Assembly: GCF_018390605.1 (NCBI RefSeq)
Contig: NZ_JAHBGD010000019.1
Location: forward strand, 259,031-323,030
Direction of reading: 5' to 3'
DNA length: 64,000 nucleotides
Source of the DNA: Ancylobacter defluvii
GTDB lineage: Bacteria > Pseudomonadota > Alphaproteobacteria > Rhizobiales > Xanthobacteraceae
The position numbers and the translations under genes were made by a program. Positions 11,996-28,533 of the stretch are shown here, piece after piece (positions within the stretch are counted from its first letter, which is position 1; each line of letters begins with the position of its first letter). A model generated the notes under the pieces. That model saw only the letters and a program-made list of their open reading frames with translations. It did no database searches and had not been told where the DNA came from.

Positions 11996-14152
11996 TCAGT
12001 TCGCCGGCCACGCCCGGTTCACCAGCAGCTGGAAGCTGAGCGACAGCACGATCCACAGCGCCACGAAGCCGACCAGCAGCGCCATCGCGCCCAGCGACGG
12101 ATCGGCAAGCACGCCGACGATCTGCCGGCCCAGCGCCGTCATCACGATCAGTCCCGGCGCCAGGCCGAGAATGGTGCCGGCGAGATAGTCCACGAAGGGG
12201 ATTCCCACGGCGCCGGCGACCAGATTGACGAAGGTGAAGGGCGCCGCCGGCACGAGGCGCACCGTCGTCACCGCCAGCACGCCGCGATTGGAAAGGCCGC
12301 GGCGGATGCGGTTGATCCGCGGGCCGATGAAGCGTCGCACCAACCGTGCCCCGAGCGTGCGCCCCACCGCATAGGTGGCGAGCGCGCTGGCCAGGGCGCC
12401 GGTTCCGGCCAGCACCGCGCCGGCCCAACCGTCGAACACCGCCACCGTGGCGACGATGAGGAGGGTAACCGGAAACGCCACGAAGCCACCGGCGACGAAG
12501 GCGGCGATCACCGCCACCGGCGCCCAGGGCGCGAGGGCCAGGCGCTCGAAGGCCTGCATGATGCGATCCGGCTCGGCAAAGGGCGAATAGCTCCAGGCCA
12601 GGGCGAGACCGCCGATCACCGCCAGGGCGGCGACGGCGCCAAGCAGCCACCGCCAGTGGCGCGGCGTCGGCGCCGCGACGCCGGATTCCTCGTAAAGCGG
12701 CTCGACGGGATCGGCGAGCGCATCGATCATCGGCAGCGGCAATTCAGCGGCATCCGGCGCATAGGGCACCCGGGCGAGGCGGCGATCCGGCGCGGGCGCA
12801 TCGAGCAGCGCCATCAGCCCGCCACCGGCAAGCGCCTCGCCGATTTCCTCCGGGGTACGGCCGAGATGCTCGCCGAGGAGGCGGTTGCGCACCCGCGCGA
12901 TGCCCGCGCGTTCCGCTTCGTCCCTCGCCTCCACCACAAGATCGCATTCGCTGTCGAAACCCATGGAGCGGTTGCATAGATTGGCCGAGCCGATGCGCAT
13001 CAGCCGGTCGTCGACGATGATGATCTTGGAATGCACCATCACCCGGCCCGCGGCGTCCTCCGGCCCCACTTCCGGATAGACAAATCGCAGGCGATTATTC
13101 AGACCGGCGTCGGCGACCATGCGCATCACCCGGTCGCGGCCGACGCCCATGGCGCGATGCTCGAACCAGGAGCGGTAGCCCATCGGCATCACCACCACCG
13201 CCTCCAGCTGCGGCCGCTCGCGCAGGCGCGCGATCAGCCGCTCGGTGGTGCGCCGGCAGGTGAAGAACTGGTTCTCGATATAGACGCAGCGTTCGGCGGC
13301 ATCGATCATGTCGAAGAACAGCGCCTCGACCTCGCGCACGCTCGGCTGCTTGCCATGCGCCGGCAGCGTGCGGCTGATACCGACGGCGATGTCCTCGAAT
13401 TCCGGCTCCAGCCCTTCCGGCCACGGCGAGGGGCTTGACTGCCCGTCGTCATCGCCGCGCGGTGGTGCCAGCCTTTCGCAGGCGGCGCGTCGCCAGCGTT
13501 CGCGCAGCATGTCGCCGAGCGCCGCCGCCGCCGGTCCTTCGACGAGCATCTGCACGTCATGGAACGCGCCATAGGCGGCACCGGCAGGATCGACCCTGAG
13601 ATCATGCGCCGGCAGATGCTCCGGCGTATCCCAGCGCCGGCCGGTAAGGTCGAGGCCGCCGGAAAACGCCACCCGGTCGTCGATCACCACGATCTTCTGG
13701 TGGTGCGAGGCACCGAAGGGTAGCGCATCGTCGAGGCAGATCTCGATCTGCGGCGGGGTGTTCCACAAGAAGGAATAGAGCGGCATCAGCTCCCGCTCGA
13801 AGGCGAACACCATCGAGTAGTCCCAGAGCAGGAGGCGGATGCGCAGCTCCGGCCGGCGCTTCACCAGCGCCGAGAGGAAATCGACGAGTTGTTCGGGCAA
13901 GCCGTCCTCGGCGCGGCCGCTGGTTCCCACCAGCTTCATCCGGCTGTCGAGGTCCCAGCCGGCGATGTACACGGTGTTCCTCGCCTGTATCAGCGCCGAG
14001 CGCAGCGCCTCGAAATAGGCAGCGCCGTCGACCAGCACCGCCGCGCGCTCAACCGATTCGATGCGCCAGACATTGCGCTCCTCGCGCAGTACCGGCGCAG
14101 AGGCCAGATCAGCCGGGGTTTCGAGGGGCAAACGCTGAACGCGGTCGAGCAT
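11996..14152 (-). CDS. Phospholipase D-like protein fused to a VTT/DedA membrane domain
   Basis: A 718-residue fusion. The N-terminal two-thirds has two PLD HKD motifs: HQKIVVIDD with H151, K153 and D158, and HSKIIIVDD with H374, K376 and D381. Each is followed by a Gly/Ser-rich turn (SGGLDLTGRRWD, GSANLCNRSMG). A helix near residue 485-500 leads into a C-terminal VTT (SNARE-associated, DedA-like) domain at about 510-718 with several membrane helices. The PLD part resembles cardiolipin synthase/phosphatidyltransferase enzymes; VTT proteins are linked to lipid scrambling. A membrane phospholipid transferase or hydrolase is the likely role. It heads a reverse-strand group with the EEP gene. Confidence 0.9.
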   Translation of the reverse strand: MLDRVQRLPLETPADLASAPVLREERNVWRIESVERAAVLVDGAAYFEALRSALIQARNTVYIAGWDLDSRMKLVGTSGRAEDGLPEQLVDFLSALVKRRPELRIRLLLWDYSMVFAFERELMPLYSFLWNTPPQIEICLDDALPFGASHHQKIVVIDDRVAFSGGLDLTGRRWDTPEHLPAHDLRVDPAGAAYGAFHDVQMLVEGPAAAALGDMLRERWRRAACERLAPPRGDDDGQSSPSPWPEGLEPEFEDIAVGISRTLPAHGKQPSVREVEALFFDMIDAAERCVYIENQFFTCRRTTERLIARLRERPQLEAVVVMPMGYRSWFEHRAMGVGRDRVMRMVADAGLNNRLRFVYPEVGPEDAAGRVMVHSKIIIVDDRLMRIGSANLCNRSMGFDSECDLVVEARDEAERAGIARVRNRLLGEHLGRTPEEIGEALAGGGLMALLDAPAPDRRLARVPYAPDAAELPLPMIDALADPVEPLYEESGVAAPTPRHWRWLLGAVAALAVIGGLALAWSYSPFAEPDRIMQAFERLALAPWAPVAVIAAFVAGGFVAFPVTLLIVATVAVFDGWAGAVLAGTGALASALATYAVGRTLGARLVRRFIGPRINRIRRGLSNRGVLAVTTVRLVPAAPFTFVNLVAGAVGIPFVDYLAGTILGLAPGLIVMTALGRQIVGVLADPSLGAMALLVGFVALWIVLSLSFQLLVNRAWPAN

Positions 14153-14272
14153 GGCAGGACGTCTCTCCGTGGCCGGTGGCTTGCGTCAACGGTCGCGGCG
14201 GCGCCGGGTTCCGCGCCGTCCTGCCGGGGTGCCCTCGCCAGAGCCGGTAGGCGCTGCTACAGCGCTTCGGTC

Positions 14273-14935
14273 ATGAACCCGCTGCTCGACATTCGCTGCG
14301 AACGCCCCTGGCTGGTGCTGCGCCTGGCCGCCCCCCACCGCATGGTGAGCTGGTCGCTCAACCGGCCGGGGCTGGTGGAAGCATCGACGATTGCCTGGCG
14401 GCAGGTCGCGACCGACGAACTCACGGCCGAACTCGATCCGGCAGCCTGGTTCGCGAGCGAACTGGCGACCGCCGGGCTGGAGGGCGCGGTCGGCCTCATC
14501 ACCGCCCGCGACGTCGCCTCCCATGTCCACCGCGCCGCCGAGGTCGAGGGTGCCCGCGCCGACTGCGTGGTGACCGCCGGCCTCAATAATGGCGAGCGCG
14601 TCGGCAGCCGCCATCCGGCCGCACCGGTGATGGCCGGCACTGTCAACATCTTCTGCCGCTCGGCGCTGCCGCTGACCGAGGCGGCGCTGCTGGAGGCGGC
14701 CTCGCTGGTGGCGCAGGCCCGCACCGTGGCGATCATGGAGGCCGGCTATCGCCGTCCCGGCGGCCGGCACGCGGTGACCGGCACCGGCACCGACTGCATC
14801 GTCATGGCGGCGCCGATGAGCGGCGCGCCGCAAGCCTATGCCGGCATGCACACCGCCATCGGCGAGGCGATCGGCGCCTGCGTCCACGAGGCCACCCGCA
14901 TCGCCGTCGCCAGCTGGATCGCCGCGCGAGGCTGA
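14273..14935 (+). CDS. cbiZ: Adenosylcobinamide amidohydrolase
   Basis: The 220-residue protein matches the CbiZ family. It opens MNPLLDIRCERPWLVL and has the conserved GLITARDVASH, the central TAGLNNGERVG, the GTVNIFC segment and the C-terminal GTGTDCIVMAAP. The enzyme removes the aminopropanol tail from adenosylcobinamide or pseudocobalamin to give cobyrate, so that foreign cobamides can be remodelled. No other cobamide gene or BtuFCD transporter lies in this window, so it stands alone. Its stop codon directly abuts that of the convergent PLP-enzyme gene. Longer upstream starts in the same frame run into the PLD gene and look spurious. Confidence 0.9.
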   Translation: MNPLLDIRCERPWLVLRLAAPHRMVSWSLNRPGLVEASTIAWRQVATDELTAELDPAAWFASELATAGLEGAVGLITARDVASHVHRAAEVEGARADCVVTAGLNNGERVGSRHPAAPVMAGTVNIFCRSALPLTEAALLEAASLVAQARTVAIMEAGYRRPGGRHAVTGTGTDCIVMAAPMSGAPQAYAGMHTAIGEAIGACVHEATRIAVASWIAARG

Positions 14936-16258
14936 TCAGCCGGTGGGCGTCAGCAATTGCTCCAGCGCATCGGCAAGCTGGTCGGCATGATCGGTGGTGA
15001 CGCAGAGCGGCGGGCGGATCTTCAAGACATTGCCGAACTGGCCGGCGGCGCCGATCAGGATGCCCTTCGCCTTCAGCCCGTTGATCAGCGCCTTGGCGAT
15101 GTCCGCACGCGGCCCGCTCTCATCGCCAAAGGCGACGCCGAGATAGAGCCCGGCCCCACGCACCGCGGTGATCGGCGCCTTGCCCATCAGATGCGTCAGC
15201 CGCGCCTTGAGGTGCCGGCCGACGCGGTCGGCATTGGCGATCAGCCCGTCCTCCTCGATCGCCTCCAGCACGGCCAGTGCCGCGGCGGTGGCCACCGGAC
15301 TGGCGGCGAAGGTGTTGAAATAGCCGAAATCGGCACAGAAATCGGCGAGCAGCTCCGGCCGCGTCACCACGCCGGCGACGGGATAGCCATTGCCCATCGG
15401 CTTGCCCATGGTGACGATGTCCGGTGTGAGGCCGTGGCGCGAGAAGCCCCACATGCCGGCGCCGGTGCGGCCGAAGCCGGGCTGCACCTCATCGGCGATG
15501 AACAAACCGCCGGCCTTGTGCGTCACCTCCACCGCGGCGTTCAGGAAACCCGGCGGGTCGGCGAACACCCCGTCTGAGGAGAAGATGGTGTCGACCAGAA
15601 GGCCGGCGAAGCGGATGCCGTCCGCCTCCATCGCGGCGATGGCCCCGGCGACCGCCTCGGCGAAGCCCTGCCCGACATCGTTGCCGAAGATCGCCGGATC
15701 CGGCGGCGGCACCATGCGCACATGCGGCGGCGGCGCGCCGTTGCGGTAGGAGGATGGCGAGACCTCGGTCACCGCCGAGGTGTTGCCGTGATAGGCGGTC
15801 TGCGTCACCACGAAGCCGGTGCCGCCGGAGGCCCGCTTGGCGATGCGCAAGGCGAGGTCGTTGCTCTCGCTGCCGGTGCAGGTGAGCACGATATTGCTCA
15901 GCGATGCCGGAAAGCTGGCGAGCAGCTTCTCGGCATAGTCGTGGGAGACGTCGAACAGATAGCGCGAATGGATGTTGAACTGGCCGATCTGCCGCTGCAC
16001 CGCCTCCACCACCTTGGGATGGCAATGCCCGACGGTCGGCACGTTGTTGTAGAAGTCGAGATAGGCGCGCCCATCGGAGGCATGGAGATAGGGCCCTTCC
16101 GCCTTCACCACCTTCAGCGGCACGTCGTAGAACAGCACCGAGCCGGCACCGAACGAGCGCTGGCGCCGCTCGACCAGCGCCGCGATGTCCGGCGGCAGCG
16201 CCGCCCCCTCGCCGGAGAAGGCGTTGAGCGAGAGGATCTGGAGTTCGCGGCTTTTCAT
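14936..16258 (-). CDS. Class III PLP enzyme, ammonia-phospho-lyase-like
   Basis: The 440-residue fold type I PLP enzyme has PLP-binding K286 in TMGKPMGNGYP, D256 in FIADEVQPGFG and a phosphate-binding GSESNDLALR. Ordinary class III transaminases usually have a different lysine context. The GKPMGNG signature, together with NNVPTVGHCHP and the ending VLKIRPPLCVT, is that of ethanolamine-phosphate and phosphohydroxylysine ammonia-lyases. The expected reaction is elimination of ammonia and phosphate from a phosphorylated amino alcohol to give an aldehyde. Its start overlaps the stop of the upstream kinase gene (ATGA). An aminotransferase role is the alternative. Confidence 0.88.
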   Translation of the reverse strand: MKSRELQILSLNAFSGEGAALPPDIAALVERRQRSFGAGSVLFYDVPLKVVKAEGPYLHASDGRAYLDFYNNVPTVGHCHPKVVEAVQRQIGQFNIHSRYLFDVSHDYAEKLLASFPASLSNIVLTCTGSESNDLALRIAKRASGGTGFVVTQTAYHGNTSAVTEVSPSSYRNGAPPPHVRMVPPPDPAIFGNDVGQGFAEAVAGAIAAMEADGIRFAGLLVDTIFSSDGVFADPPGFLNAAVEVTHKAGGLFIADEVQPGFGRTGAGMWGFSRHGLTPDIVTMGKPMGNGYPVAGVVTRPELLADFCADFGYFNTFAASPVATAAALAVLEAIEEDGLIANADRVGRHLKARLTHLMGKAPITAVRGAGLYLGVAFGDESGPRADIAKALINGLKAKGILIGAAGQFGNVLKIRPPLCVTTDHADQLADALEQLLTPTG

Positions 16259-17265
16259 GCTGCCGTCCTCGCATGGGTTTCAAGGAAGGCGCGGCCGAGC
16301 GCCACCGTGCCGTGCGTATAGGCCTCGCCCAACGCCTGCGCAGTCGGGGTCTCGGCATGCGAGGCGATCCAGGCGGTGAGCAGCATGCGCCGCAGCATGA
16401 TGAACACCGGCAGGATCTCGCACTCCGCGTCAGTGAGCGGCGCCACGCTGCGGTAGCCCGCGACCCATGCCTTTTGCAGCGCGGGGATATAGGGCTCGTG
16501 CTCGGTGAAGCTGATGGCGGCGGCGAAGTCATAGAGGTACCAGGAGAAGCCGCAATCGTCGAAATCGATCACCGACAGCGTATCGCCGTCAGCCAGCAGG
16601 TTGGCGACCCGCATATCGGCATGGACCAGGCCGAACCGGTCCTCGCCGGTGCCATAGGCGTCCAGCTGCTGCTTGAGCAGCGCCGCCACCTCTTCGAGTA
16701 CCGCCCGCCCCTCTCCATCGAGGCCCAGCCCGGCGCGCCAGTCGCCCCAAAGCAGCACCTCGCCGAGCATGGCATCGAAATCCCAGCGTTTGCGCACGAA
16801 GCCTTCCGGCCGCTGCCACGCCTTCGCATGGGCGTGCAGCCGGGCATTGATGGCCCCGAGCTCGCGGAACCAGCGCGGCAAATCCTCGCCCTCGGCCGGC
16901 TCGCGGCCGGGCAGCAGCTGGAACGCCACCGCGTGGCGCGTCACCCCGCCATCGTCGAGATCGGCGATCAGCGTGCCGTCGGCAAGCGGCACCGGGGTCA
17001 GCGTCGCCACCACGCCGTCGCGGCCCAGCGCTTCCAGCCAGGCGAGCTCGGAGGCGATCTCCGCGCGCGAATGGTAGCCCGGCCGATGCACCCGCAACAC
17101 CAGTTCGCGACCGGAGGCGGCGTCGCGGGCGCGAAACGTGGCGTTCTCGGAGATGGTGAGCAGCTTCACGTCGCTGTCCGGCGACAGCCCCCAGCGCGGC
17201 AGGGCGGCGCGCAGGCTCGCCTCGAGCCGGCCCAGGAAGTCGTCGCTATACATGGCATCGGTCAT
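16255..17265 (-). CDS. APH-fold small-molecule kinase (phosphotransferase family)
   Basis: The 336-residue protein has an aminoglycoside phosphotransferase/choline kinase fold. The catalytic loop is LVHADMRVANLL, with H215, D217 and N222, and the metal-binding site is SVIDFDDCGF, with D234 and D236. The N-lobe has LVLRVHRPG as the probable nucleotide-binding lysine-equivalent strand, though the usual Lys is replaced by Arg here. It resembles homoserine/choline/hydroxylysine kinases. It overlaps the class III PLP gene by 4 bases and follows the amidase gene by 2 bases, so it most likely supplies the phosphorylated substrate of that PLP enzyme. The start could be ATG 17265 or 17253. Confidence 0.85.
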   Translation of the reverse strand: MTDAMYSDDFLGRLEASLRAALPRWGLSPDSDVKLLTISENATFRARDAASGRELVLRVHRPGYHSRAEIASELAWLEALGRDGVVATLTPVPLADGTLIADLDDGGVTRHAVAFQLLPGREPAEGEDLPRWFRELGAINARLHAHAKAWQRPEGFVRKRWDFDAMLGEVLLWGDWRAGLGLDGEGRAVLEEVAALLKQQLDAYGTGEDRFGLVHADMRVANLLADGDTLSVIDFDDCGFSWYLYDFAAAISFTEHEPYIPALQKAWVAGYRSVAPLTDAECEILPVFIMLRRMLLTAWIASHAETPTAQALGEAYTHGTVALGRAFLETHARTAA

Positions 17266-17267
17266 TA

Positions 17268-17963
17268 TCAGAGCTTCATCAGTGACTTGAGGTCGTCGAG
17301 CGCCATCACGTTGCAGTAGATCATGTTGATGATCTCCAGCTCGCGGGCGTGCAGGTTATCGGTCGCCGCCGCGCAGCAATCCTCCAGCACCACCACGTCG
17401 AAGCTCTCATCGGCGAGGCTGCGCACGGTGGAGGAAACGCATTGATCGGTGAAGATGCCGACGCAGATCACGGTGCGGATGCCGAGATTGGCGAGGATCA
17501 GCCGCAGATTGGTGCCGGTGAGCGCGCTGTCGGTGGTCTTGATGACGGTGATCTCGTCGCCCTGCGGCGCCAGTGCCGGCACGATCTGCGAGGCGTGCTC
17601 GTCCTTGGGCAGCAGCAGATTGTTGAAGCCCGGCTTCTTCTGGCTCAGCGAGCGGTCGCGGCCGTCTTGCGTACGGCAGGCGATGCGGGCGAACAGGCAT
17701 TCGATGCCCTTCGCCCGGAACAACGCCAGCACGTCGGCGATGTTGGGAATTACCGTGCCGTGCATCCGCTCATGGAACGGCGTCCAGCCGTCGTAATGCA
17801 CCCGCTCCGCCTCGCTGGCGAGCGACGCCCGGTCGGGGCGCTCCAGATAGGTGTTCTGCACGTCGATGACCAGCAGCGCGGTGGTCGCCGGGTTGAGCTC
17901 GGGATCGTCCGGCTCGGGCGCCAGCGCATAGTAGAAGGAGCGGTTGCGGGTTTTCCAGTTCAC
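17268..17963 (-). CDS. Isochorismatase-family cysteine hydrolase (amidase)
   Basis: The 231-residue protein carries the D-K-C triad of the isochorismatase fold: D34 in LLVIDVQN, K142 in TVIKTTDSAL and C175 in IFTDQCVSST, which marks the cysteine hydrolase (amidase) branch rather than true isochorismatases. The substrate is probably a small amide or carbamoyl compound; biuret, ureidoacrylate and carbamoylsarcosine hydrolases are family examples, none specifically indicated. The start is GTG 17963, whose GTGA overlaps the stop of the upstream alpha/beta hydrolase gene, so the two are translationally coupled. Confidence 0.88.
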   Translation of the reverse strand: MNWKTRNRSFYYALAPEPDDPELNPATTALLVIDVQNTYLERPDRASLASEAERVHYDGWTPFHERMHGTVIPNIADVLALFRAKGIECLFARIACRTQDGRDRSLSQKKPGFNNLLLPKDEHASQIVPALAPQGDEITVIKTTDSALTGTNLRLILANLGIRTVICVGIFTDQCVSSTVRSLADESFDVVVLEDCCAAATDNLHARELEIINMIYCNVMALDDLKSLMKL

Positions 17964-18856
17964 GCGACGCCTCCCCTGTGCTTGCCGAGGAAGGCGAGCA
18001 GGCGCGCGTCATAGGCGGCCGGCTCCTCGTAGAACGGCATATGCGACGAGTTCGGGAACACCGCGACTTCCGCCTGCGGCAGGTTCTGCTTCATGCGCAG
18101 CGCGCAGGCGGGGGTGATCTCGTCGTGCCGGCCGACGGTGATCAGCGCCGGGCAGGCGATGCGATTGAGGTCGGCGGTGCGGTTCCAGTCCTTCAGATTG
18201 CCGATGTAGAGGAACTCGTTCGGCCCCTGCATCGCCATATAAGGCGCCATGTTCCAGTCGTTCAGCGAGGCCATCAGCGGCGCCGGCCACGCCGCCATAC
18301 GGCAGACATGGCGGTAGTTGAGCAGGGTGATCGCCGCCTGATATTCGGGATGGTCATAGGAGCCGTCTGCCTCGTGGGCGAGCAGCATCTCCACCGTCTC
18401 CGGGCCCAGCGCAGCGCGCAGCCGGTGCATTTCGCTCATCAGGTGAGGCAGGTCGGCGGCGGTGTCCTCGAGGATCAGCGTCTTCAGCGCCTCGGGATAC
18501 GCCAGCGCATAGTCGATGGCGAGCCAGCCGCCCCAGCTATGGCCGAGCAGATGCACCCGCCCGAGGCCGAGCGCCGTGCGCACCGTCTCGACCTCCACGA
18601 CATAGCGGGCGATCGACCACAGCGCCGGATCGTCCGGCCGGTCGGAAGCGCCGCAGCCGAGCTGGTCGAAGGCGACGACGCGGTAGCCATGATCGGCGAG
18701 GAAGGAATGCGCGTCACGCAGATAGTCGCAGGGCAGGCCCGGCCCGCCATTCAGCAGGAACACCGTGTCTTCGCCGGCACCGTAGCAATAGGCGACGACC
18801 TTATGGCCATCGACCTCGATCTCGATCCGCGCGTCGGCGGGTTGCTGCTGCCACAT
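17960..18856 (-). CDS. Alpha/beta hydrolase, proline iminopeptidase-like
   Basis: About 298 residues with the peptidase S33-type layout: oxyanion segment LLNGGPGLPCDYL (the HGGPG-like motif), nucleophile S107 in LLGHSWGGW, then GRHDEITP (acid) and SSHMPFYEEP (histidine). There is no signal peptide, so it is cytoplasmic. The start at 18856 follows the DeoR stop by 10 bases; an upstream extension would run into the regulator gene. Within this operon it probably cleaves an amide, ester or aminoacyl conjugate of the imported compound. Its true substrate is unknown. Confidence 0.85.
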   Translation of the reverse strand: MWQQQPADARIEIEVDGHKVVAYCYGAGEDTVFLLNGGPGLPCDYLRDAHSFLADHGYRVVAFDQLGCGASDRPDDPALWSIARYVVEVETVRTALGLGRVHLLGHSWGGWLAIDYALAYPEALKTLILEDTAADLPHLMSEMHRLRAALGPETVEMLLAHEADGSYDHPEYQAAITLLNYRHVCRMAAWPAPLMASLNDWNMAPYMAMQGPNEFLYIGNLKDWNRTADLNRIACPALITVGRHDEITPACALRMKQNLPQAEVAVFPNSSHMPFYEEPAAYDARLLAFLGKHRGGVA

Positions 18857-18866
18857 GGTAGGAACC

Positions 18867-19691
18867 CTATTTCCGCGCCACCGCGACCTCGACGCCGGCA
18901 CGGGCGAGCGCGCGGGCGAGCGCGCCATCCGGCGCCTTGTCGGTGACGAGGCGTTGGATGTCCGGCACCCGCGCCCAGATGGCGAGCGAGGGCACGTCGA
19001 ATTTCTTGTGATCGGAGACGATGATAGTCTCCGCCGCCCGGTTCATCATCGCCTTGTAGACCCAGGCCGCCGGCGCCTCGGCATCGGCCAGGCCCTCCGG
19101 GGTGATGCCGGAGACGCCGAGGATTGCCCGGTTGACGTTATAGCTTTGCAGGAACTCGATGGTCTCCACCCCCACCATCATGCCCTCGCGGCCGTTGTAA
19201 TGGCCGGGGCAGAGGATGACGTCGATGGTCGGGTTGGCCGCCACCACGGTGGCCACCGAAAAGGAATGGGTGATCACCGTCAGGTCGCGGCATTCGGCGG
19301 CCATACGACGCGCGACATGCGTCGTCGTCGCCCCGGCGCCGATGGCGATCACCTCCTGCGGCTTGATGAACTTCACCGTCCGCGCCGCGATCGCCTCGCG
19401 CTCGGCCACCATCATCTGGTGGCGCTCGGTCACCGCCGGCTCGGAGCCGAACGGCCGCACCGCGCCGCCATAGGTGCGATTGATCAGCCCGCGCTCCTGC
19501 AATTCGAACAGGTCGCGGCGGATGGTCTCGGTGGAGACGTTGAGATCGGCGGCGAGGTCGCCGACCCGCAGCGTCACGGTGGCCCGCATCTCGGCAAGGA
19601 TGCGCTCGTGCCGCGCCGCCTTGTCGAGGCGTGGGCGGCGCCGGTCGGCAAGCGTGTCGGAGGGCTCGCTGCCGTTCGAGGACGCCGTCAT
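18867..19691 (-). CDS. DeoR/GlpR-family transcriptional regulator
   Basis: The 274-residue protein has an N-terminal winged helix-turn-helix at about residues 25-80 (RVGDLAADLNVSTETIRRDL, then ERGLINRTYGGA, the DeoR signature). A sugar-isomerase-like effector domain follows (AIGAGATTTHVARRM, and ETIIVSDHKKFD near the C-terminus). DeoR proteins typically respond to phosphorylated intermediates, which fits a pathway containing a kinase. The ATG at 19691 overlaps the stop of the upstream permease gene. It probably controls the divergent promoters between the binding-protein gene and the SDR gene; that target is inference. Confidence 0.92.
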   Translation of the reverse strand: MTASSNGSEPSDTLADRRRPRLDKAARHERILAEMRATVTLRVGDLAADLNVSTETIRRDLFELQERGLINRTYGGAVRPFGSEPAVTERHQMMVAEREAIAARTVKFIKPQEVIAIGAGATTTHVARRMAAECRDLTVITHSFSVATVVAANPTIDVILCPGHYNGREGMMVGVETIEFLQSYNVNRAILGVSGITPEGLADAEAPAAWVYKAMMNRAAETIIVSDHKKFDVPSLAIWARVPDIQRLVTDKAPDGALARALARAGVEVAVARK

Positions 19692-20500
19692 GCCGGCTGC
19701 CGCCGGCGCAGGAGCAGCATGACCAGCCCGCCGCCGAGCAGCAGCGTCGCCGCGCCCAGCGTCGCCATGGTGCCGAGCGCCGGCACCATCGGCGTGTAAC
19801 CGGCCACCATCTTGGCATAGAGCCATTTCGGGATCGTACTGTCTGCCCCCGCCGTATAGAGCGACAGCGGGAAATTGCTCCACGACAGCAGGAACGCGAA
19901 CAGCATGCCGGACCAGATGCCCGGCCACAGCAGCGGCAGCGTCACCTCGCGGAACACCTGGGTGCGCGTGCAGCCGAGATCGTAGGCCGCCTCCTCCAGC
20001 GAGGCATCGAAGCCATAGACCTGGATGGCGATGACCAGCGTCACCACCGGCACGATCCAGACGAGATGCGCGAACACCGCCGTCAGCCACGAGGTCTGGA
20101 TGCCCACCGCATTGAAGCCGAGCAGCAAAGCGAGGCCGAGCACCGGCTGCGGGAAGAAGATCGGCAGGATGATCAGCTTCTGGTACAGCCGCCGTCCCTT
20201 CCAGTCATAGCGGGCGAAGGCCAGCGCGCCGAAGGTGGCGATCACCACCGAGATCACCGTCACCAGCAGGGCGATGGCGATCGAGTTGCGCACCAGCATG
20301 CCGATCTCGATGGAATCGAGGGTCTTCTGCCACCACTCGGTGGCGTAGACTTTGATCGGAAAGCCGAAATAACGGCTCTTGTTGAAGCTCGCCAACGCGC
20401 CGCAGAGAATCGGCAGATAGACCGCGACGAGGACGAACACCGTCCACACCCAGATCAGGGCATTGGTGCGTTTGCGAGCGAGCGCCGGACTGGTTGCCAT
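19688..20500 (-). CDS. ABC transporter permease, PotC type
   Basis: The 270-residue inner-membrane permease has six hydrophobic helices and the ABC-importer EAA loop EEAAYDLGCTRTQVFREVTLP at about residues 170-190 that docks on the ATPase. Wording is closest to PotC-like permeases of the spermidine/putrescine subfamily. It starts 3 bases after the stop of the PotB-like gene. It works with the adjacent PotA-, PotB- and PotD-like proteins to import a small, probably cationic, solute. Confidence 0.92.
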   Translation of the reverse strand: MATSPALARKRTNALIWVWTVFVLVAVYLPILCGALASFNKSRYFGFPIKVYATEWWQKTLDSIEIGMLVRNSIAIALLVTVISVVIATFGALAFARYDWKGRRLYQKLIILPIFFPQPVLGLALLLGFNAVGIQTSWLTAVFAHLVWIVPVVTLVIAIQVYGFDASLEEAAYDLGCTRTQVFREVTLPLLWPGIWSGMLFAFLLSWSNFPLSLYTAGADSTIPKWLYAKMVAGYTPMVPALGTMATLGAATLLLGGGLVMLLLRRRQPA

Positions 20501-20503
20501 GGT

Positions 20504-21409
20504 TCAGCGCCTCCCCAGCATGCGGTCGAGGTCGAGCTTGGACAGCGCCGTGAGCGTGAGCGCGGCGATGAACACGCTCACCACCACCGCCAGCGCCGAG
20601 CCGAGCGGCCAGTTCTGCGAATAGGTGAAGGCGATCTCGATATCGTGCGAGATCACGATGATCGACTGCCCGCCGAGAATCTTCGCCTCCGCCGTGGCGC
20701 CGATGGCGAGCACGAAGGTCAGCAGCATGCCGATCAGGATGCCGGGCATGGCGAGCGGCAATTCGATCTCGCGCCAGATGAACAGCCGCCCGGCGCCGAG
20801 GTCGCGCGCCGCATCCACCAGGTCGCGCGGCACCAGGGCAAGGCCGAGCGTCATCGGGAACAGCATGAAGGGCAGATAGGTGTAGGCCATGCCGAACAGG
20901 GTGACGCCCGGCGTGTAGAGCACCTCCGGCCCGCCGGGGAGGCCCAGCCATTTCAGCGTGCCATCGAGCACGCCGTTCTTGATGAAGAACAGCACCCAGC
21001 CATAAAGCCGCACATTTTCCGATACAAAGAGCGGGAACACGAACAGCACGCTTATGAAGCCGGCCCAGCGCCCGAACACCGCGTTCAGCCCATAGGCGAT
21101 CGGGTAGGCGATCACCGCCAGGATGGCGACGGTGAACAGCGCGAAGCCGACCGACCAGGCGAAGGACAGCCACACCGTGTTGGTGGGATCGAAGATGCTG
21201 GCGAAGTTCTCCAGCGTGAAGGAGCGAAACACGTCGAAGCTGCGCGGCGTCGCGAAGGAATAGGCGAGGATCGCCACCATCGGCGCCAGGAAGCCGATGC
21301 CGAGCAGCACCGCTACCGGCAGCGCGCAGCGCGCGCCCACCGAGAGCATCCGGGCCTGGCGGACCTGCCGCGCCGTCTCCGGCGCGCGGGCGAGTGCGAT
21401 GTCGGCCAT
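20504..21409 (-). CDS. ABC transporter permease, PotB type
   Basis: About 301 residues and six membrane helices, with an EAA loop VDAARDLGAGRLFIWREIEL near residues 205-225. The start at 21409 is preceded by GAGGAGGGG at good spacing; the upstream in-frame region lies in the ATPase gene. It overlaps none of the PotC-like gene but is only 3 bases from it. It is the second half of the importer channel. Confidence 0.92.
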   Translation of the reverse strand: MADIALARAPETARQVRQARMLSVGARCALPVAVLLGIGFLAPMVAILAYSFATPRSFDVFRSFTLENFASIFDPTNTVWLSFAWSVGFALFTVAILAVIAYPIAYGLNAVFGRWAGFISVLFVFPLFVSENVRLYGWVLFFIKNGVLDGTLKWLGLPGGPEVLYTPGVTLFGMAYTYLPFMLFPMTLGLALVPRDLVDAARDLGAGRLFIWREIELPLAMPGILIGMLLTFVLAIGATAEAKILGGQSIIVISHDIEIAFTYSQNWPLGSALAVVVSVFIAALTLTALSKLDLDRMLGRR

Positions 21410-21419
21410 CGTCCCCTCC

Positions 21420-22541
21420 TCAGCTGCCCAGCGTGAAGGCGTCGGCGGCATCCCAGCCGATCGTCACCTCGCGCGAGGCGCCCGGCGGCAACGCGCGGGC
21501 GCGCGACAGCTCGACCAGCATCACCTTCTCGCCGGCATCCTTCGAGCCCACCCGCACCTGATACTGGATGCGCGAGCCAAGCGAATATTCGTTGTAGACC
21601 GTGCCCTTCAGCTGGTTGTCGGCGCGCTCGCCGGCGGCGAGGAAGCGCATATATTCCGGCCGGATCACCACGAAGGCCTCGTCGAGCACCGCGCCATTCT
21701 GCGGCGAGCCGAGCGTGAAGGTGCCGGGCACGTCGACGCCCTGCCATTGCTGACCCACGCGCTTCATCTTGAGGGTGTTCACTTCGCCGACGAACTCCGA
21801 CACGAAGCGGTCGACCGGGGCGCCGTAGATCTCCTCCGGCGTGCCGACCTGCACGAGCCGGCCGGCGCGCATCACCCCGATACGGTCGCTCATCACCATC
21901 GCCTCCTCCAGCGAATGGGTGATGTAGATGAAGGTCTTGCCGGTCTCGCGGTGCAGGTCCTTCAGCTCCTTCTCCAGCGCCTTCTTCAGCTTGTAGTCGA
22001 GGGCGGAGAGCGGCTCGTCGAAGAACAGCACCTCGGGATCGTAGGCGAAGGCACGGGCCAGCGCCACGCGCTGGCGCTCGCCTCCCGAGCACTTCATCAC
22101 ATTCTTGTCGTGATAGTTATCCGGCAAACGAACGATGCGCATCAGCTCCAGCGCCCGCTTCTTCCGGGTCGCGGCGTCGGCGCCCTTCACCTTGAGCGCG
22201 AAGGCGATGTTCTCGCCGACGCTTTTGTGCGGGAACAGCGCCAGCGACTGGAACACAAGGCAGGTCGGCCGCTTGTTCGGCGGCACGTCGTTGATCAGCT
22301 CGCCGCGCAAGGTGATGTTGCCTTCGCTCGGCGTGTCCATGCCGGCCAGCATGCGCAAAAGCGTGGTCTTGCCCGAGCCTGAAGGGCCGACGATGGTCAG
22401 GAACTCGCCCTCGCGCACGTCGAGGTCGATGCCCTCCACCGCCGCGAAGCCGCCGAACATTTTTCGCACGCCGACCAGCTGGAGGATCGGCAGCCGCGGG
22501 GCTTCGACGGCGGTGGAAGCGGCGGGCAGGGTCTGGAGCAT
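21420..22541 (-). CDS. ABC transporter ATP-binding protein, PotA type
   Basis: About 373 residues. The N-terminal ATPase has Walker A VGPSGSGKTT, Q-loop LVFQSLALFP, signature CSGGERQRV and Walker B LFFDEPLSALD, then the switch histidine in YITHSLEEA. A C-terminal TOBE domain occupies about 280-370. The signature has CSGGE rather than the usual LSGGQ, a tolerated variant in this subfamily. The start MLQTLPAAS at 22541 is preferred because GGAAG lies just upstream. It energises the adjacent permeases. Confidence 0.92.
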   Translation of the reverse strand: MLQTLPAASTAVEAPRLPILQLVGVRKMFGGFAAVEGIDLDVREGEFLTIVGPSGSGKTTLLRMLAGMDTPSEGNITLRGELINDVPPNKRPTCLVFQSLALFPHKSVGENIAFALKVKGADAATRKKRALELMRIVRLPDNYHDKNVMKCSGGERQRVALARAFAYDPEVLFFDEPLSALDYKLKKALEKELKDLHRETGKTFIYITHSLEEAMVMSDRIGVMRAGRLVQVGTPEEIYGAPVDRFVSEFVGEVNTLKMKRVGQQWQGVDVPGTFTLGSPQNGAVLDEAFVVIRPEYMRFLAAGERADNQLKGTVYNEYSLGSRIQYQVRVGSKDAGEKVMLVELSRARALPPGASREVTIGWDAADAFTLGS

Positions 22542-22621
22542 GGGTCTTCCGAAAACAGAGGGTCCGGCGGCGCGCACGCCGCCGGAAATTCAGCAACAGG
22601 CAGAGCGATCGGCGGAACCGA

Positions 22622-23773
22622 TCAGCCGCGCAGCCGCTTGGCGGCGTTCATGATGTCGAGCGCCTTGTCGTAATCCGGCACGATGTCGTACTCGACCGAG
22701 CGGGCCATTTCCTCTTCGAGGCTGTCCCACTGGATGGCGTCGAGCTCTTCCTTGGTGAACAGGTCGAAGCAGGCCTTGTTGCCCATCTGCGCCACCGGGT
22801 TGAAGGTGCCCTCGGCGAAGGCGACGGTGTGCGCCACTTCCGGCGCCTGCACATATTTCAGGAACTCCAGCGCCAGCGGCGACAGGTTCGGGTTGTTCAC
22901 CGTCGAGGTCACCTCGATCCAGGAGATGCCGCCCTTCCCGCCGGCCAGCGGCCCCTTCAGCGGGGTGATGGCGCGCAGGTTCGGGTGGCCGTCGGCGCGC
23001 GCCGGCGAGACCGAATAGGTGCCCCCGGTGAGATGCAGGTCGATCTCGCCGGAGATCAGCGCCTGGTTCATCGAGGCGATGTCGCCGATCAGCTTGGCAC
23101 CCTTGAAGACCCGCTTGGCGGTCTCCTCGAACTTCGCCAGCTCGTCCGGCGTATGCACCTTGAACGGGTCGATGCCGGCGACGATGAAGATGTTGAACAC
23201 ATTCCAGTCGTCGGATTCGAGGATGCCGTATTTGCCGGCCAGCGCTGGATCGTTGAACAGGTCCCAGCCGGTTTCCTCGGCAGTCTTGCGGCTGACCTTG
23301 TCGGTGTTGACGACGAAGCTGTAGGGTCCGAAGCGCTGCACCATGCCGAGCAGGTCGGCGCCGTCCTCGCTCATCGCCCACTTGTAGGGCCATTTGAACT
23401 CCGGGAGCATCTGCGCGAAGAAGGGCTCGAACTCCGCCTTCGGCAGCGGCTTGATCAGCTTCTCGGGCAGCATCACCTTGCGCGCCCAGGGATTGTTGAC
23501 GTTGATCAGGTCCCAGGTGTTGGTCTCGCCGGCGCGCAGGCGGTTGATCATGGTCGGGTCGTTGGTCAGGCTCTCGGCCTTCACCGTCGCACCGGTCTTC
23601 TCGCGGAACGGATCGAGCACCTGCGCGGAGTTGTAGCCCTCCCAGCACAGAATGTTCAGCTCCTTCTCGCGCGCCGCGAAGGCGCTGCCGGTGCCGAGCA
23701 GCGGCCCCGCCGCCAGCGCCCCGGCGCCGGCCGCCATGCCCTGAAGCATCGACCTTCTGGAAATGCCTGCCAT
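22622..23773 (-). CDS. Periplasmic substrate-binding protein, PotD-like
   Basis: The 383-residue protein starts MAGISRRSMLQGMAAGAGAL, a twin-arginine-type signal peptide with cleavage expected after GSAFA (about residue 32). The mature part begins EKELNILCWEGY, a PotD-type opening, and has the two-lobed binding-protein layout. AAAAGGGGAC precedes ATG 23773. As first gene of the reverse-strand operon it delivers the ligand to the PotABC-like channel. Polyamine specificity is not established; related proteins bind many cationic or amino solutes. Confidence 0.92.
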   Translation of the reverse strand: MAGISRRSMLQGMAAGAGALAAGPLLGTGSAFAAREKELNILCWEGYNSAQVLDPFREKTGATVKAESLTNDPTMINRLRAGETNTWDLINVNNPWARKVMLPEKLIKPLPKAEFEPFFAQMLPEFKWPYKWAMSEDGADLLGMVQRFGPYSFVVNTDKVSRKTAEETGWDLFNDPALAGKYGILESDDWNVFNIFIVAGIDPFKVHTPDELAKFEETAKRVFKGAKLIGDIASMNQALISGEIDLHLTGGTYSVSPARADGHPNLRAITPLKGPLAGGKGGISWIEVTSTVNNPNLSPLALEFLKYVQAPEVAHTVAFAEGTFNPVAQMGNKACFDLFTKEELDAIQWDSLEEEMARSVEYDIVPDYDKALDIMNAAKRLRG

Positions 23774-23854
23774 CTGGAAGTCCCCTTTTATGATGGCGCG
23801 AACCTCGTCCGGCCGCGCATGCCGTGCCGCATCGAAGCCATGGCGAATGTGGCT

Positions 23855-23910
23855 TTGATGTTGGAGTTTGTGTGATCCTAAACATCTCGATTTGGGCTTT
23901 ACAACATCAA
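23855..23910. promoter_or_regulatory. Candidate operator in the divergent control region
   Basis: TTGATGTTG at 23855-23863 and its exact reverse complement CAACATCAA at 23902-23910 are 38 bases apart. A third half-site AACATC lies between them at 23881-23886. The segment is AT-rich and lies between the binding-protein gene and the divergent SDR gene, so the DeoR-type regulator encoded in the operon is the obvious candidate ligand. Binding is inferred. Confidence 0.5.
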
Positions 23911-24035
23911 TTTTGCATCGCACCCTGATCAAAAGACAGGCAGCCCAGACTTGCGGCATCTCAAGGCCGGAGCATCGGCTGCCTGGCTTCAATCGATTGA
24001 AAACGCTAAATTTCTTCCAAGGGAAATCACGTCAC

Positions 24036-24815
24036 ATGTTTACGCCGCTCGCAGGCAAGACGGTCATCGTCACCGGCGCCAGCAAGGGAATCGGGCGCGG
24101 CCTCGCGCTGCGCTTCGGACAGGCCGGCCTCAACGTGCTGGTGGTCAGCCGCCATCTCGCCGAGGCGGAGAAGGTCGCCGCCGAAATCGGCGCCAACGCC
24201 TCCGGCTTCGCCGCCGACATCACCCGCGTCGCGGATTGCGACGCCATGGCCGCCACGGCGGTCGAGCGCTACGGCTCCATCGACGTGCTCTGCGCCAATG
24301 CCGGCATATTCCCCGCCGCCAAGCTCGGCGAGATGACCGAGGCGGATTTCGACCACGTGATCGGCACCAACCTCAAGGGCACTTTCCTGTCGGTCTCGGC
24401 GGTGCTGCCGCAGATGAAGGCGCAGAAGCAGGGCCGCATCGTGCTCACCTCCTCGATCACCGGCCCGATCACCGGCTTTCCCGGCTGGTCGCATTACGGT
24501 GCCTCCAAGGCCGGCCAGCTCGGCTTCATGCGCACGGCGGCGATCGAGCTGGCGCCGTGGAACATCACCGTCAACGCGGTGATGCCCGGCAACATCCACA
24601 CCGAGGGCATGGACGGCATGGGCGAGGCCTATATCGCCTCCACCGCCGCCTGCGTGCCGATGAAGAAGCTCGGCAGCGTGTTCGACATCGCCAATGCGGC
24701 GCTGTTCTTCGCCTCCGAGGAGGCCGGCTACATCACCGGCCAGGGGCTGTCGATCGATGGCGGGCAGGTGCTGCCGGAATCGCCGATGGCGCTCGACGAG
24801 ATGGGCACCGCCTGA
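24036..24815 (+). CDS. Short-chain dehydrogenase/reductase
   Basis: A classical SDR of 259 residues with cofactor motif TGASKGIG (13-20), NAG (88-90), catalytic S140, Y154 and K158 (YGASK) and a C-terminal GYITGQGLSIDGGQV. Arg39 and His40 after the second strand suggest NADP preference, though this is weak. AAGGGAA lies about 11 bases before ATG 24036. It faces the catabolic operon across the candidate operator and probably oxidises or reduces an aldehyde or alcohol intermediate. FabG-like annotation would be generic only. Confidence 0.88.
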   Translation: MFTPLAGKTVIVTGASKGIGRGLALRFGQAGLNVLVVSRHLAEAEKVAAEIGANASGFAADITRVADCDAMAATAVERYGSIDVLCANAGIFPAAKLGEMTEADFDHVIGTNLKGTFLSVSAVLPQMKAQKQGRIVLTSSITGPITGFPGWSHYGASKAGQLGFMRTAAIELAPWNITVNAVMPGNIHTEGMDGMGEAYIASTAACVPMKKLGSVFDIANAALFFASEEAGYITGQGLSIDGGQVLPESPMALDEMGTA

Positions 24816-24855
24816 GCCGGCACGGCGCCGCCGGCAGACAGCTCCGCGCAAACGA

Positions 24856-24889
24856 AAAGGGCACCGCCGCGGCGGTGCCCTTTCTTTCG
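24856..24889. terminator. Bidirectional terminator between SDR and transpeptidase genes
   Basis: A perfect 28-base palindrome at 24856-24883 (arms AAAGGGCACCGCCG and its complement) is followed by TTTCTTTCG-like T-rich sequence on the plus strand and by A/T-rich sequence on the minus strand. It serves two convergent genes. Confidence 0.85.
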
Positions 24890-24905
24890 TCAATAGCCGG
24901 CGCGG

Positions 24906-26138
24906 CTATTCGGAGCGGGCGCTCTTCGGCTTCAGCCAGGCGAACATGGAGCCGGCGCCCTTCGGCTTGATCTCGTTGGGCAGGCGGGCCACCACCACCA
25001 TGTGGTCGATCTTGCCCTTCTTCCAATGGGCGAGGAAGGCCTCGTAATTCTTGAACGAGATGCAGCCATTGGAATCGCCGCGAGGGCCCAGCAGGTAGCT
25101 GTGGGTCAGGATGCCGTTGCGGCCAAACATCGGCTCCTTGCCGACCGGCGTCATCCGCAGCGCCTCGACGCCATGGAACAGCGATTCGCGCATGGTCAGC
25201 TTGTAGGTGTTCGGCGGTGTCGGGCCGCGCATCTTCACCGAGATATGGCGCGGATCGTCGAACCGGTCGCCATAGCCGGAATGCGCCTCGAACTTGGTGC
25301 CATCAGGCATGTACACGACCTGGCCGACAATGTCGTAGACGGCGAAGCGGTCGCCCGATTTCGGCAGACGCACCTCGGCGGTGGACATCGGAATGCCGGT
25401 GGCTTCTTCCGGCGACACCTGCGGCGGCTCGGTCGGCCCGAGGTCGAGCTCACCCTCGCCGGTCGACAGCGAAGCCAGCCGCACCTTGCGGGCCAGCGGA
25501 TTCTTTTCCGGCGTCGGCGCATCTGCGGCAAGGTCGCCCGAGGATAGCGCGTCCGGCTCCGCGGCCGCGGAAGCCGCGGCGGTCTGGGTACGGCCGGCGC
25601 CGCGCGGGTCGGAAGGCGGCAGCGGCACCGCATGCGCCATCGCCACCACCGCGCCCTTCGGCGCCGCGCTGCCGGCGAGGTCGGAACTCGGCCGCATCGG
25701 CGCGCTCGCCACCGTCTCGGTGGGTGCGGCGCGCAGCGGCATCTGCATGTCGGGGCCGAAAATCCAGTTCGGCGCCAGCGCCACCACGCCGGCGGACTGG
25801 AAATTGCGGATTTCGCGGACGCTCGCCTCCATCTTCATCGGCGGCGGCGCCATCTCGAACGGGGTGTCCTCCGGCATGGGCGGCGGAAGATCGGCGGGCG
25901 CGACATTGCCCCGGCCGAACCCCGGCAGGCCGGCAACGGCACTCGCCTCGGTCACGCGCCATTCGGGAGCGGTCGCAGAAGACGGCGCCCAGGCGGCGCC
26001 GAAGGAGACAGCGGCGGTCGCGGCCGCGCCGCCGGCGCCGATGATCAGCGCGGCGACGAAATGCCAGCGAGGCCTAACCGGCTTCGGCGCCATCGGCGCG
26101 CGCGTGCCAAATCCACGGGTCCGAGCTTTTCTGCCCAT
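24906..26138 (-). CDS. Membrane-anchored L,D-transpeptidase-like protein (Tlde1/DUF2778 domain)
   Basis: About 410 residues. An N-terminal basic segment and one membrane helix (about 25-50) are followed by a long Pro/Ala-rich linker of about 200 residues. The C-terminal catalytic domain has THSYLLGPRGDSNGCISF, with putative catalytic H346 and C359. This HxxLxGPxGxSxGC arrangement is the DUF2778/Tlde1 domain, named for a type VI secretion L,D-transpeptidase effector. No secretion genes are nearby, so a housekeeping peptidoglycan role is more likely. The start is uncertain (26138 or 26093); GGGGAG is unusually close to 26138. A small hairpin overlaps its stop codon. Confidence 0.82.
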   Translation of the reverse strand: MGRKARTRGFGTRAPMAPKPVRPRWHFVAALIIGAGGAAATAAVSFGAAWAPSSATAPEWRVTEASAVAGLPGFGRGNVAPADLPPPMPEDTPFEMAPPPMKMEASVREIRNFQSAGVVALAPNWIFGPDMQMPLRAAPTETVASAPMRPSSDLAGSAAPKGAVVAMAHAVPLPPSDPRGAGRTQTAAASAAAEPDALSSGDLAADAPTPEKNPLARKVRLASLSTGEGELDLGPTEPPQVSPEEATGIPMSTAEVRLPKSGDRFAVYDIVGQVVYMPDGTKFEAHSGYGDRFDDPRHISVKMRGPTPPNTYKLTMRESLFHGVEALRMTPVGKEPMFGRNGILTHSYLLGPRGDSNGCISFKNYEAFLAHWKKGKIDHMVVVARLPNEIKPKGAGSMFAWLKPKSARSE

Positions 26139-26476
26139 AACTCCCCAAAACCCACATTCACACCGCCGATGCGTTGCGAATGGCATCGCCGCATCGGTCG
26201 GATCACGCTCCCGCCTTCTAACGAGGCGGGCTTACTAGGCGTGAATCCATAGCGAAACTTGGTAAGCAATTTATTGATATCCGGCCGCAATGCAAACGCG
26301 AAACGCACGAACGGCATTTCCCACCCCTTCATGCCGCCACGAAATACCGTCACCCGTATCGGCAGTGGCAGGATAACAGTGCCGAGATCCGCTCTCGTGT
26401 GCACCCGCCGGTTCATGCGATAAGCCGCCCTGCCGGGACGACCGGCGAGAGCCGGCGACGAACAGGGACGATGTGC
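26139..26476. other. Divergent spacer between transpeptidase and M20 genes
   Basis: 338 bases without a supported gene. A 7-bp stem CCCGCCT/AGGCGGG (26210-26230, 7-base loop) and an AT-rich stretch near 26240-26290 are the only visible structures. Promoters for both flanking genes are expected here. Confidence 0.5.
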
Positions 26477-27649: not shown

Positions 27650-27661
27650 CACGCGGCGGCC

Positions 27662-28441
27662 TCACCACGCCACGGCGGCAGCGGCACGGGCGTAGTGGAC
27701 CACCCCGTCCATCACCAGCTTCAGCGACAGCAGGAACAGCGCCCCGATCACCAGTCGGAAGAACAGTTTTTCCGGGATCACCCGCGTCAGCTTCACCCCG
27801 GCGAAGGTACCGATCACCGCCACCGGGGTCAGCGCCAGCGTGAGCGTGAGATTGGACAGGCTCAGCTGGCCCAGCGCCCAGTAGGGCACCAGCTTCATGG
27901 CGTTGATCGCGGCGAACAGCAGCGTCGAGGTGCCGGCGAACACCATTTTCGGCAGGCGCTGCGGCAGCATGTAGGTCTGGTAGGGCGGGGCGCCGGCATG
28001 GGTGACGAAGCTGGTGAAGCCAGTCAGCGTGCCCCAGAACAGCCCGCGCGGCACGTCCGCCGGGCGCGGCGTGGTCGGCATGCGGCCGAACCAGCGGTTG
28101 AGGCAGAAGCCGAGCCCGATCAGCCCGACCATCAGCATCACCGCTTCCTCGCTGATCACCGAGGCGGTGGCCCAGCCGATGCCCACCCCCAGCGCGCCGG
28201 CCGGCATCAGGATGGCGAGGTTGCGGCCGGAATATTCCCGCCGGTAGTTCCACACCCCGAACATGTCGCTGATGACATAGACCGGCAGCAGCAGGCCGGC
28301 GGCGGTGAGCGGCGACATCACCAGCGACATGATCGGCACGGCGAGCAGGCCGATCATCGGCAGCCCGCCCTTGGACAGGCCGACCGCCGCCGCCGCCAGG
28401 CCGGCGGCCAGCGCGAACCCGATCTGCGACGGGTCGAGCAT
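27662..28441 (-). CDS. TauE/SafE-family (TSUP) membrane permease
   Basis: The 259-residue protein has about eight hydrophobic helices arranged in two repeats, as in the sulfite exporter TauE/SafE family (LAAAAVGLSKGGLPMIG near the start, VTHAGAPPYQTYMLPQRL in the middle). Family members move organosulfur compounds or sulfite across the inner membrane. The substrate here is unknown. Its ATG immediately follows a spacer after the transaldolase stop (92 bases), and co-transcription with transaldolase is possible but unproven. Confidence 0.88.
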   Translation of the reverse strand: MLDPSQIGFALAAGLAAAAVGLSKGGLPMIGLLAVPIMSLVMSPLTAAGLLLPVYVISDMFGVWNYRREYSGRNLAILMPAGALGVGIGWATASVISEEAVMLMVGLIGLGFCLNRWFGRMPTTPRPADVPRGLFWGTLTGFTSFVTHAGAPPYQTYMLPQRLPKMVFAGTSTLLFAAINAMKLVPYWALGQLSLSNLTLTLALTPVAVIGTFAGVKLTRVIPEKLFFRLVIGALFLLSLKLVMDGVVHYARAAAAVAW

Positions 28442-28533
28442 GGTGGAGACTACCTCGGGAGAAAACGGCAGCGGGCGACGGCGCCTTAGCCGTCACCCGC
28501 CCGGATACGATGGAGCTCGACGTTCGGGGCGGC

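Follow-up and report, generated by a model that had tools for sequence, protein, structure and literature searches.

Several described systems combine an APH-fold kinase with a class III pyridoxal phosphate (PLP) enzyme of a phospho-lyase clade: the Rhodococcus and Mycobacterium microcompartment (RMM, Aaum or Aut) loci, the pTC2 cluster of Paenarthrobacter aurescens TC1, and the human enzymes ETNPPL and PHYKPL with their kinases. Here we compare them with a gene cluster lying in a stretch of 64,000 nucleotides (the window) from the alphaproteobacterium Ancylobacter defluvii (Rhizobiales; contig NZ_JAHBGD010000019.1, positions 259,031 to 323,030, forward strand). This locus is probably a microcompartment-free catabolic operon for aminoacetone and 1-amino-2-propanol, with an importer and a DeoR regulator of its own. 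Such an operon would mean that amino alcohols can be degraded by the kinase/phospho-lyase route outside a shell, with dedicated import and regulation, from alphaproteobacteria to Pseudomonas, and its hosts would be experimentally convenient for studying why the pathway is enclosed by a shell in only some bacteria.

The RMM/Aaum/Aut loci share with the window a homologous kinase, a lyase-clade class III enzyme and an inferred aminoacetone/aminopropanol route, as well as a short-chain dehydrogenase/reductase (SDR), described in PMC4207490, which lists for RMM1 an SDR and a phosphotransferase along with several hydrolases, all with no assigned function. The window differs from them in having neither shell genes, nor an aldehyde dehydrogenase in the cluster, nor the C-terminal extension of the lyase, in using an ABC importer instead of a permease and a DeoR instead of a GntR regulator, and in its additional hydrolases: an isochorismatase-fold enzyme (ISO), an alpha/beta hydrolase (ABH) and CbiZ. 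The pTC2 cluster, source of the protein of structure 5g4i, likewise brings together kinase, lyase, SDR, transporter and regulator, but its kinase and SDR are 29% and 27% identical to those of the window, transporter and regulator are a permease and a TetR protein, and an aldehyde dehydrogenase is present. The human systems share the PLP clade (only ETNPPL was included in our tree) and the reaction logic, whereas their substrates are different and they form no operon. According to its abstract, the paper on the mycobacterial kinase reportedly found this enzyme very often beside a candidate phospholyase and proposed that aminoacetone is broken down in that way; the pairing as such is therefore not new. 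Finally, in Agrobacterium fabrum C58 the pAtC58 genes ATU_RS25115 to ATU_RS25070 include a kinase, a lyase, a FabG-type SDR, a PotD/ABC importer, an isochorismatase and a DeoR regulator, carrying generic annotation only; compared with the window, the modules are reordered, ABH is absent and a P1-family peptidase follows.

PLP enzyme, kinase and SDR of the cluster

Nine tightly packed minus-strand open reading frames (ORFs; 14936-23773) face an SDR gene on the opposite strand (Table 1). In the order of transcription they encode a solute-binding protein, an ATPase, two permeases, DeoR, ABH, ISO, the kinase and the class III PLP enzyme, separated, from the PLP gene to the binding-protein gene, by -4, 2, -4, 10, -4, 3, 10 and 80 bases; a gap of 262 bases (23774-24035) lies between the binding-protein gene and the divergent SDR gene. 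Both this layout and the gene families agree with an earlier annotation made from the letters alone (the sequence-only reading): Pfam assigns Aminotran_3, APH, Isochorismatase, Abhydrolase, DeoR, two BPD permeases, ABC ATPase, SBP_bac_8 and SDR, and the motifs GKPMGNG, NNVPTVGHCHP and VLKIRPPLC that had been claimed for the PLP enzyme are present in its translation.

The same reading had taken the PLP enzyme for a phospho-lyase and had named clustering with omega-transaminases as the outcome that would overturn it; the enzyme instead grouped with characterised lyases. Against solved structures it scored 334 bits with 5g4i (39.3% identity) and 291 bits with human ETNPPL (6tor; 40.2%), and at most 166 bits with other class III enzymes. 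A tree built from 44 selected rows placed it inside a 22-row clade (support 100/96) containing ETNPPL and the A. aurescens phospholyase, with ETNPPL as the first branch, outside the 21 bacterial rows; 12 class III rows from its own genome, dialkylglycine decarboxylase and alphaproteobacterial class III rows from shell-type or related loci were placed outside. The GKPMGNG motif, which holds the catalytic lysine K286, occurred in 22/22 rows of the clade, in 0/13 other rows and in 0/6 class III rows from shell-type or related loci (one own-genome row, L186, translated in the wrong frame and forming a very long branch, was excluded from this count; row L106 is another class III gene of its locus, and the partial own-genome matches L197-L200 were not used). 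That the enzyme is an ordinary omega-transaminase is hardly credible, given its placement and signature residues, although it has the class III fold (PF00202) and the named NCBIfam models matching it are mostly those of transaminases; none of the 25 matches listed of 70 reached its curated cut-off. It is thus a member of the phospho-lyase clade, and lyase activity is predicted for it. PMC8154272 states that, among class III lyases of this type, only ETNPPL and a close relative had been documented at the time.

The kinase has the APH fold, with HADMRVANLL and IDFDD as motifs of the HxDxxxxN and DFD types, and its best solved relative by a wide margin is 6ef6 (266 bits, 43.5% identity; next structure 72 bits); the closest named homologues of both kinase and ISO are from Ancylobacter. 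The SDR passed the model NF004202 (423 bits, cut-off 333) and is nearest to 6ci8 (295 bits, 54.1% identity). We take 6ef6 and 6ci8 to be the (S)-1-amino-2-propanol kinase and dehydrogenase of the Mycobacterium smegmatis RMM microcompartment, and it is because of these two relatives that we interpret the locus as the RMM pathway without its shell.

The pathway can be outlined as follows, every substrate and reaction in it being predicted. The PotD-type binding protein and ABC importer would bring in a small cationic amine, and the SDR, judging from its relatives, would interconvert aminoacetone and 1-amino-2-propanol; the kinase would form 1-aminopropan-2-yl phosphate, from which the PLP enzyme, if it acts as its clade predicts, would eliminate phosphate and ammonia to yield propionaldehyde, which enzymes encoded outside the cluster would oxidise. 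DeoR, as its family suggests, probably senses a phosphorylated intermediate, and ISO, ABH and CbiZ may be accessory amidases adding aminopropanol or aminoacetone from amide-bound sources. A role of the SDR at entry, reducing an amino ketone to the amino alcohol, is more likely than the action on the aldehyde product suggested in the sequence-only reading. As for the importer, the binding protein has a PotD-type fold resembling polyamine receptors, and none of the curated Pot models was passed by the window proteins (PotD 27.5 bits, cut-off 582; PotB 126, 348; PotC 127, 326; PotA 313, 482).

Recurrence of the gene set, with and without a shell

We surveyed 297 genomes of the order, finding the kinase in 81 of them (84 places); the window and 80 further loci were fetched, leaving out G052, G180 and the second place of G279. 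A second set held the best 80 kinase loci from named organisms, some of which overlap with the order set. Presence of each part was scored by tblastn with the window proteins at identity thresholds chosen for this analysis. The ORF caller misses genes, absences on short contigs (e.g. L076, L098, L228, L243) are weak, and the names given to neighbouring genes (shell, diol dehydratase, Dpp, BtuFCD, CobC) were read by eye from translations.

Among the 80 order loci the SDR was present in 42, the lyase in 30, DeoR in 30, the binding protein in 28, ISO in 13, ABH in six and CbiZ in four; the corresponding numbers for the 80 named loci were 52, 57, 40, 30, 13, seven and four. An eight-gene core recurred in 21/80 order and 26/80 named loci, so that the gene set is more than a chance association; all ten parts came together in 3/80 order loci and in 1/80 named loci (Bosea sp. 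117). The order of the modules differs between lineages, and the full core reaches Pseudomonas, Stutzerimonas and one Desulfobacter metagenome-assembled genome, with Methylophaga loci carrying kinase, lyase, SDR and mostly DeoR without the importer. Kinase genes without the PLP enzyme, named beforehand as part of what would refute the pathway, do occur in some of the loci: 23/80 named loci (some on short contigs) have no lyase, and among order loci whose kinase is less than 51.5% identical to that of the window only 1/44 has one and 43/44 do not. Within the near clade (at least 51.5% identity) the lyase is kept in 29/36.

Apart from these, a group of loci with kinases of about 43-49% identity (L105, L107, L110-L113, L118, L122, L123) has no lyase or importer in the stretch and shows conserved neighbours that include, by eye, a glycosyltransferase and polysaccharide-export-like genes, possibly reflecting another function. 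Instead of a lyase, the Bradyrhizobium kinases of L230, L250 and L260 have in their neighbourhood an amidase, a Dpp-like transporter and a HAD-type phosphatase (by eye).

The amino alcohol pathway proposed by the sequence-only reading is supported as regards kinase and phospho-lyase, and its suggested substrates, ethanolamine or hydroxylysine, give way to 1-amino-2-propanol, which is more likely because 6ef6 is the closest solved kinase and CbiZ is a recurrent neighbour (see below). Were ethanolamine or hydroxylysine the substrate, the kinase would yield O-phosphoethanolamine or 5-phosphohydroxylysine and the lyase acetaldehyde or aminoadipate semialdehyde. The two solved lyases of the clade, 5g4i and 6tor, speak for this alternative, which we nevertheless consider unlikely in view of the kinase's much closer kinship with 6ef6, the position of ETNPPL outside the bacterial rows, the repeated presence of CbiZ beside the kinase, and the frequency, given above for both sets, of the window-type SDR, for which ethanolamine breakdown offers no obvious role.

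The divergent region between the binding-protein and SDR genes contains a block, TGGGCTTTACAAC, that was identical across 12/12 aligned gaps of this kind; a two-mismatch variant stands in the same gap of L056, L057 and L060. Allowing at most one mismatch, TGGGCTTTACAAC matched 18 times across about 2.1 Mb of locus sequence (with some organisms counted twice: L213 went through the scan a second time, and genomes such as those of L044 and L207 or of L070 and L238 belong to both sets); single-base shuffles of 60 loci contained no match. Seventeen of the 18 matches lie at most 600 bases upstream of a gene matching part of the set, two of these preceding a class III enzyme of 25% identity in L070 and L238. 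The block may be a DeoR operator or part of a promoter.

A scan of 18 window proteins, of which 16 are encoded within 11996-30582, gave no match to a shell family. The RMM locus of Rhodococcus jostii RHA1 has a kinase 43% identical to that of the window and a class III enzyme (501 aa, 42.8% identity, with a C-terminal extension) that fell inside the lyase clade. For such loci a transaminase giving lactaldehyde was proposed in PMC6620236; the placement of the RHA1 enzyme favours a lyase over that published proposal. Among alphaproteobacteria, 11 order loci (L078-L081, L088, L095, L100-L102, L106, L121) carry shell-type genes by eye, with kinases of 39-52% identity; ten of them share the SDR type of the window and eight its ISO type, and the importer is commonly the same (no shell gene was seen in L092). 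Genes resembling diol dehydratase subunits precede ISO in L102 and also, in a locus without the kinase, in L158. Since SDR, ISO and importer are common to these shell loci, one supply module seems to serve both shell-bound and free pathways.

CbiZ and the two other hydrolases

The model of ISO matches ureide and amide hydrolases and, by fold, isochorismatases equally well; we group it with the amidohydrolases because of its D-K-C triad, which it shares, together with the fold, with biuret/triuret hydrolase and RutB. It scored far below the curated cut-offs of biuret hydrolase and RutB (74.1 bits against 370 and 64.7 against 378). ABH belongs to the proline-iminopeptidase subfamily (TIGR01250, 271 bits, cut-off 168), with GHSWG at residue 105.

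In the sequence-only reading both hydrolases were needed, as obligatory first steps releasing the substrate from an imported amide or peptide conjugate. Several observations would suit such a pathway: the ISO and ABH genes overlap and ISO adjoins the kinase gene; all ten genes are found together in L045, L054, L058 and L211; ISO lies at most 20 kb from the kinase in 19/35 places; and a protein of 581 aa (P0182), in which the kinase is fused to an isochorismatase domain, supports a functional link between the two. A precedent is offered by the glutamylated amino alcohol intermediates of isopropylamine breakdown (PMC6776027). An obligatory role is nonetheless improbable. With ISO in 13/80 and ABH in 6/80 order loci, core clusters with neither hydrolase occur in A. 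tumefaciens CFBP5499 and in Ancylobacter (L202, L205-L207); among the 35 ISO genomes, ten have the kinase elsewhere and six have no kinase match; and ABH is within 20 kb of the kinase in only 7/23 places, having neighbours of its own in the others, often another hydrolase of this kind together with a pair of transporter ATPases (Dpp-type by eye). ISO and ABH stand at most 5 kb apart in eight genomes, in six of which they are away from the kinase. The two hydrolases are optional modules, and in the aminoacetone/1-amino-2-propanol pathway they are plausible as predicted feeders from amide-bound sources, conjugate release being unneeded.

Close ABH homologues in L152-L157 and L172-L178 are mostly found with a further proline-iminopeptidase-like hydrolase and a pair of transporter ATPases, forming a separate module in which ISO is also present in six genomes.

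Missed by the sequence-only reading, a CbiZ gene (PF01955, 155.2 bits, gathering threshold 27, E 2.6e-45) lies tail to tail with the PLP gene, the two stop codons being directly adjacent (gap 0). According to PMC7733943, the bond hydrolysed by CbiZ is the amide adjacent to the aminopropanol linker. We found it in 33/297 genomes of the order, 14 of which also have the kinase and 19 of which do not; in a sample of the class, 11/387 genomes were positive, one being that of the window. A kinase search of 29 CbiZ genomes without an earlier kinase match added one genome, with a non-adjacent kinase of 59% identity (three kinase-like matches of 30-36% were left uncounted). In 5/15 genomes holding both genes, the window and four of one genus, CbiZ lies at most 3 kb from the kinase; the expectation for adjacency by chance is about 0.03, and counted by genera it is 2/7 (computed with eight) with a value of about 9e-5, a rough figure obtained without a tree. 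CbiZ is also found within four named kinase loci (L201, L211, L213, L244). Three arrangements are seen overall: tail to tail as in the window (A. oerskovii, L201; A. radicis, L244; Bosea sp. 117), upstream of DeoR on the same strand (Pararhizobium polonicum), and diverging from DeoR or the kinase (the four-genome genus). Of 12 CbiZ genes away from the kinase or in genomes without it, several have, by eye, TonB receptors, BtuFCD (L290) or CobC/CbiB (L291) as neighbours, and others do not.

One tentative interpretation, for which we would not claim much, is that amino alcohol catabolism is coupled to corrinoid turnover. CbiZ would free 1-amino-2-propanol from scavenged cobinamides and the adjoining kinase and phospho-lyase would dispose of it, or convert it to propionaldehyde, under DeoR, with importer, SDR and amidase forming an exchangeable supply module of aminopropanol or propanediol for a free or shell-bound, partly B12-dependent pathway. 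If true, this link would join the chemistry of the vitamin B12 linker to carbon or nitrogen catabolism. The reverse relationship, in which the kinase serves B12 salvage by re-phosphorylating for CbiB the (R)-1-amino-2-propanol freed by CbiZ, would agree with the adjacency of the two genes, with the cleavage site of CbiZ and with the corrinoid-related neighbours at some of the 12 remote places. It is very improbable, however, for a kinase that is accompanied by a lyase that would destroy its product, by an importer and by an SDR, and that is missing from 19 of the 33 CbiZ genomes of the order.

Several points weigh against a shell-less aminoacetone/1-amino-2-propanol operon, or against the part given to CbiZ in it. 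The SDR is almost as near to 3rih (283 bits) and 3pk0 (280 bits) as to 6ci8. The PDB list gives 6ef6 and 6ci8 generic names only. Both characterised structures of the lyase clade, 6tor and, as we assume for its substrate, 5g4i, are phosphoethanolamine enzymes, which keeps ethanolamine in play. The cluster yielded no aldehyde dehydrogenase in the scans of the 18 window proteins; no SDR of the window type was found in the part of the RHA1 RMM locus that was fetched; and in the four shell loci included in the tree (L081, L100, L102, L121) the kinase has a class III enzyme nearby that falls outside the lyase clade. CbiZ accompanies only 4/80 order and 4/80 named kinase loci, and TGGGCTTTACAAC is absent from the CbiZ gaps, which counts against a regulatory link. 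Titles in the reference list of PMC8007038 name the mycobacterial kinase and dehydrogenase papers without PDB codes and make the former an (S)-kinase, whereas the linker of corrinoids is the (R) isomer (PMC8123684).

Feature coordinates and flanking genes

Table 1. Features of the cluster and its CbiZ neighbour (window positions)
Feature	Position	Strand	Evidence
CbiZ, adenosylcobinamide amidohydrolase family	14273..14935	+	PF01955; putative member of the functional unit
Class III PLP enzyme, phospho-lyase (ETNPPL / A. aurescens) clade, 440 aa	14936..16258	-	PF00202 248.6 bits; clade 100/96; GKPMGNG
APH-fold small-molecule kinase, probable 1-amino-2-propanol kinase, 336 aa	16255..17265	-	PF01636; 6ef6 266 bits
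ISO, isochorismatase-fold cysteine amidohydrolase, GTG start, 231 aa	17268..17963	-	
ABH, alpha/beta hydrolase, proline-iminopeptidase subfamily, 298 aa	17960..18856	-	TIGR01250 271 bits; GHSWG
DeoR-family regulator, 274 aa	18867..19691	-	PF00455, PF08220
PotC-like permease, 270 aa	19688..20500	-	PF00528; PotC model 126.6 bits, cut-off 326
PotB-like permease, 301 aa	20504..21409	-	PF00528; PotB model 126.2 bits, cut-off 348
PotA-like ATPase with TOBE domain, 373 aa	21420..22541	-	PF00005, PF08402
PotD/PotF-type solute-binding protein, 383 aa	22622..23773	-	
Conserved block TGGGCTTTACAAC, possible operator or promoter part	23893..23905	+	divergent intergenic region
SDR, probable amino ketone / amino alcohol dehydrogenase, 259 aa	24036..24815	+	NF004202; 6ci8

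Further along the window, two adjoining plus-strand ORFs (28510-29694 and 29695-30582; 394 and 295 aa) had no Pfam match at E 0.001. Just past the SDR gene a Tlde1-domain protein (PF10908) is encoded on the minus strand (24906-26114), and at the other end of the cluster the minus-strand gene at 11996-14152 encodes a protein of 718 aa in which a phospholipase D-like protein is fused to a VTT membrane domain.

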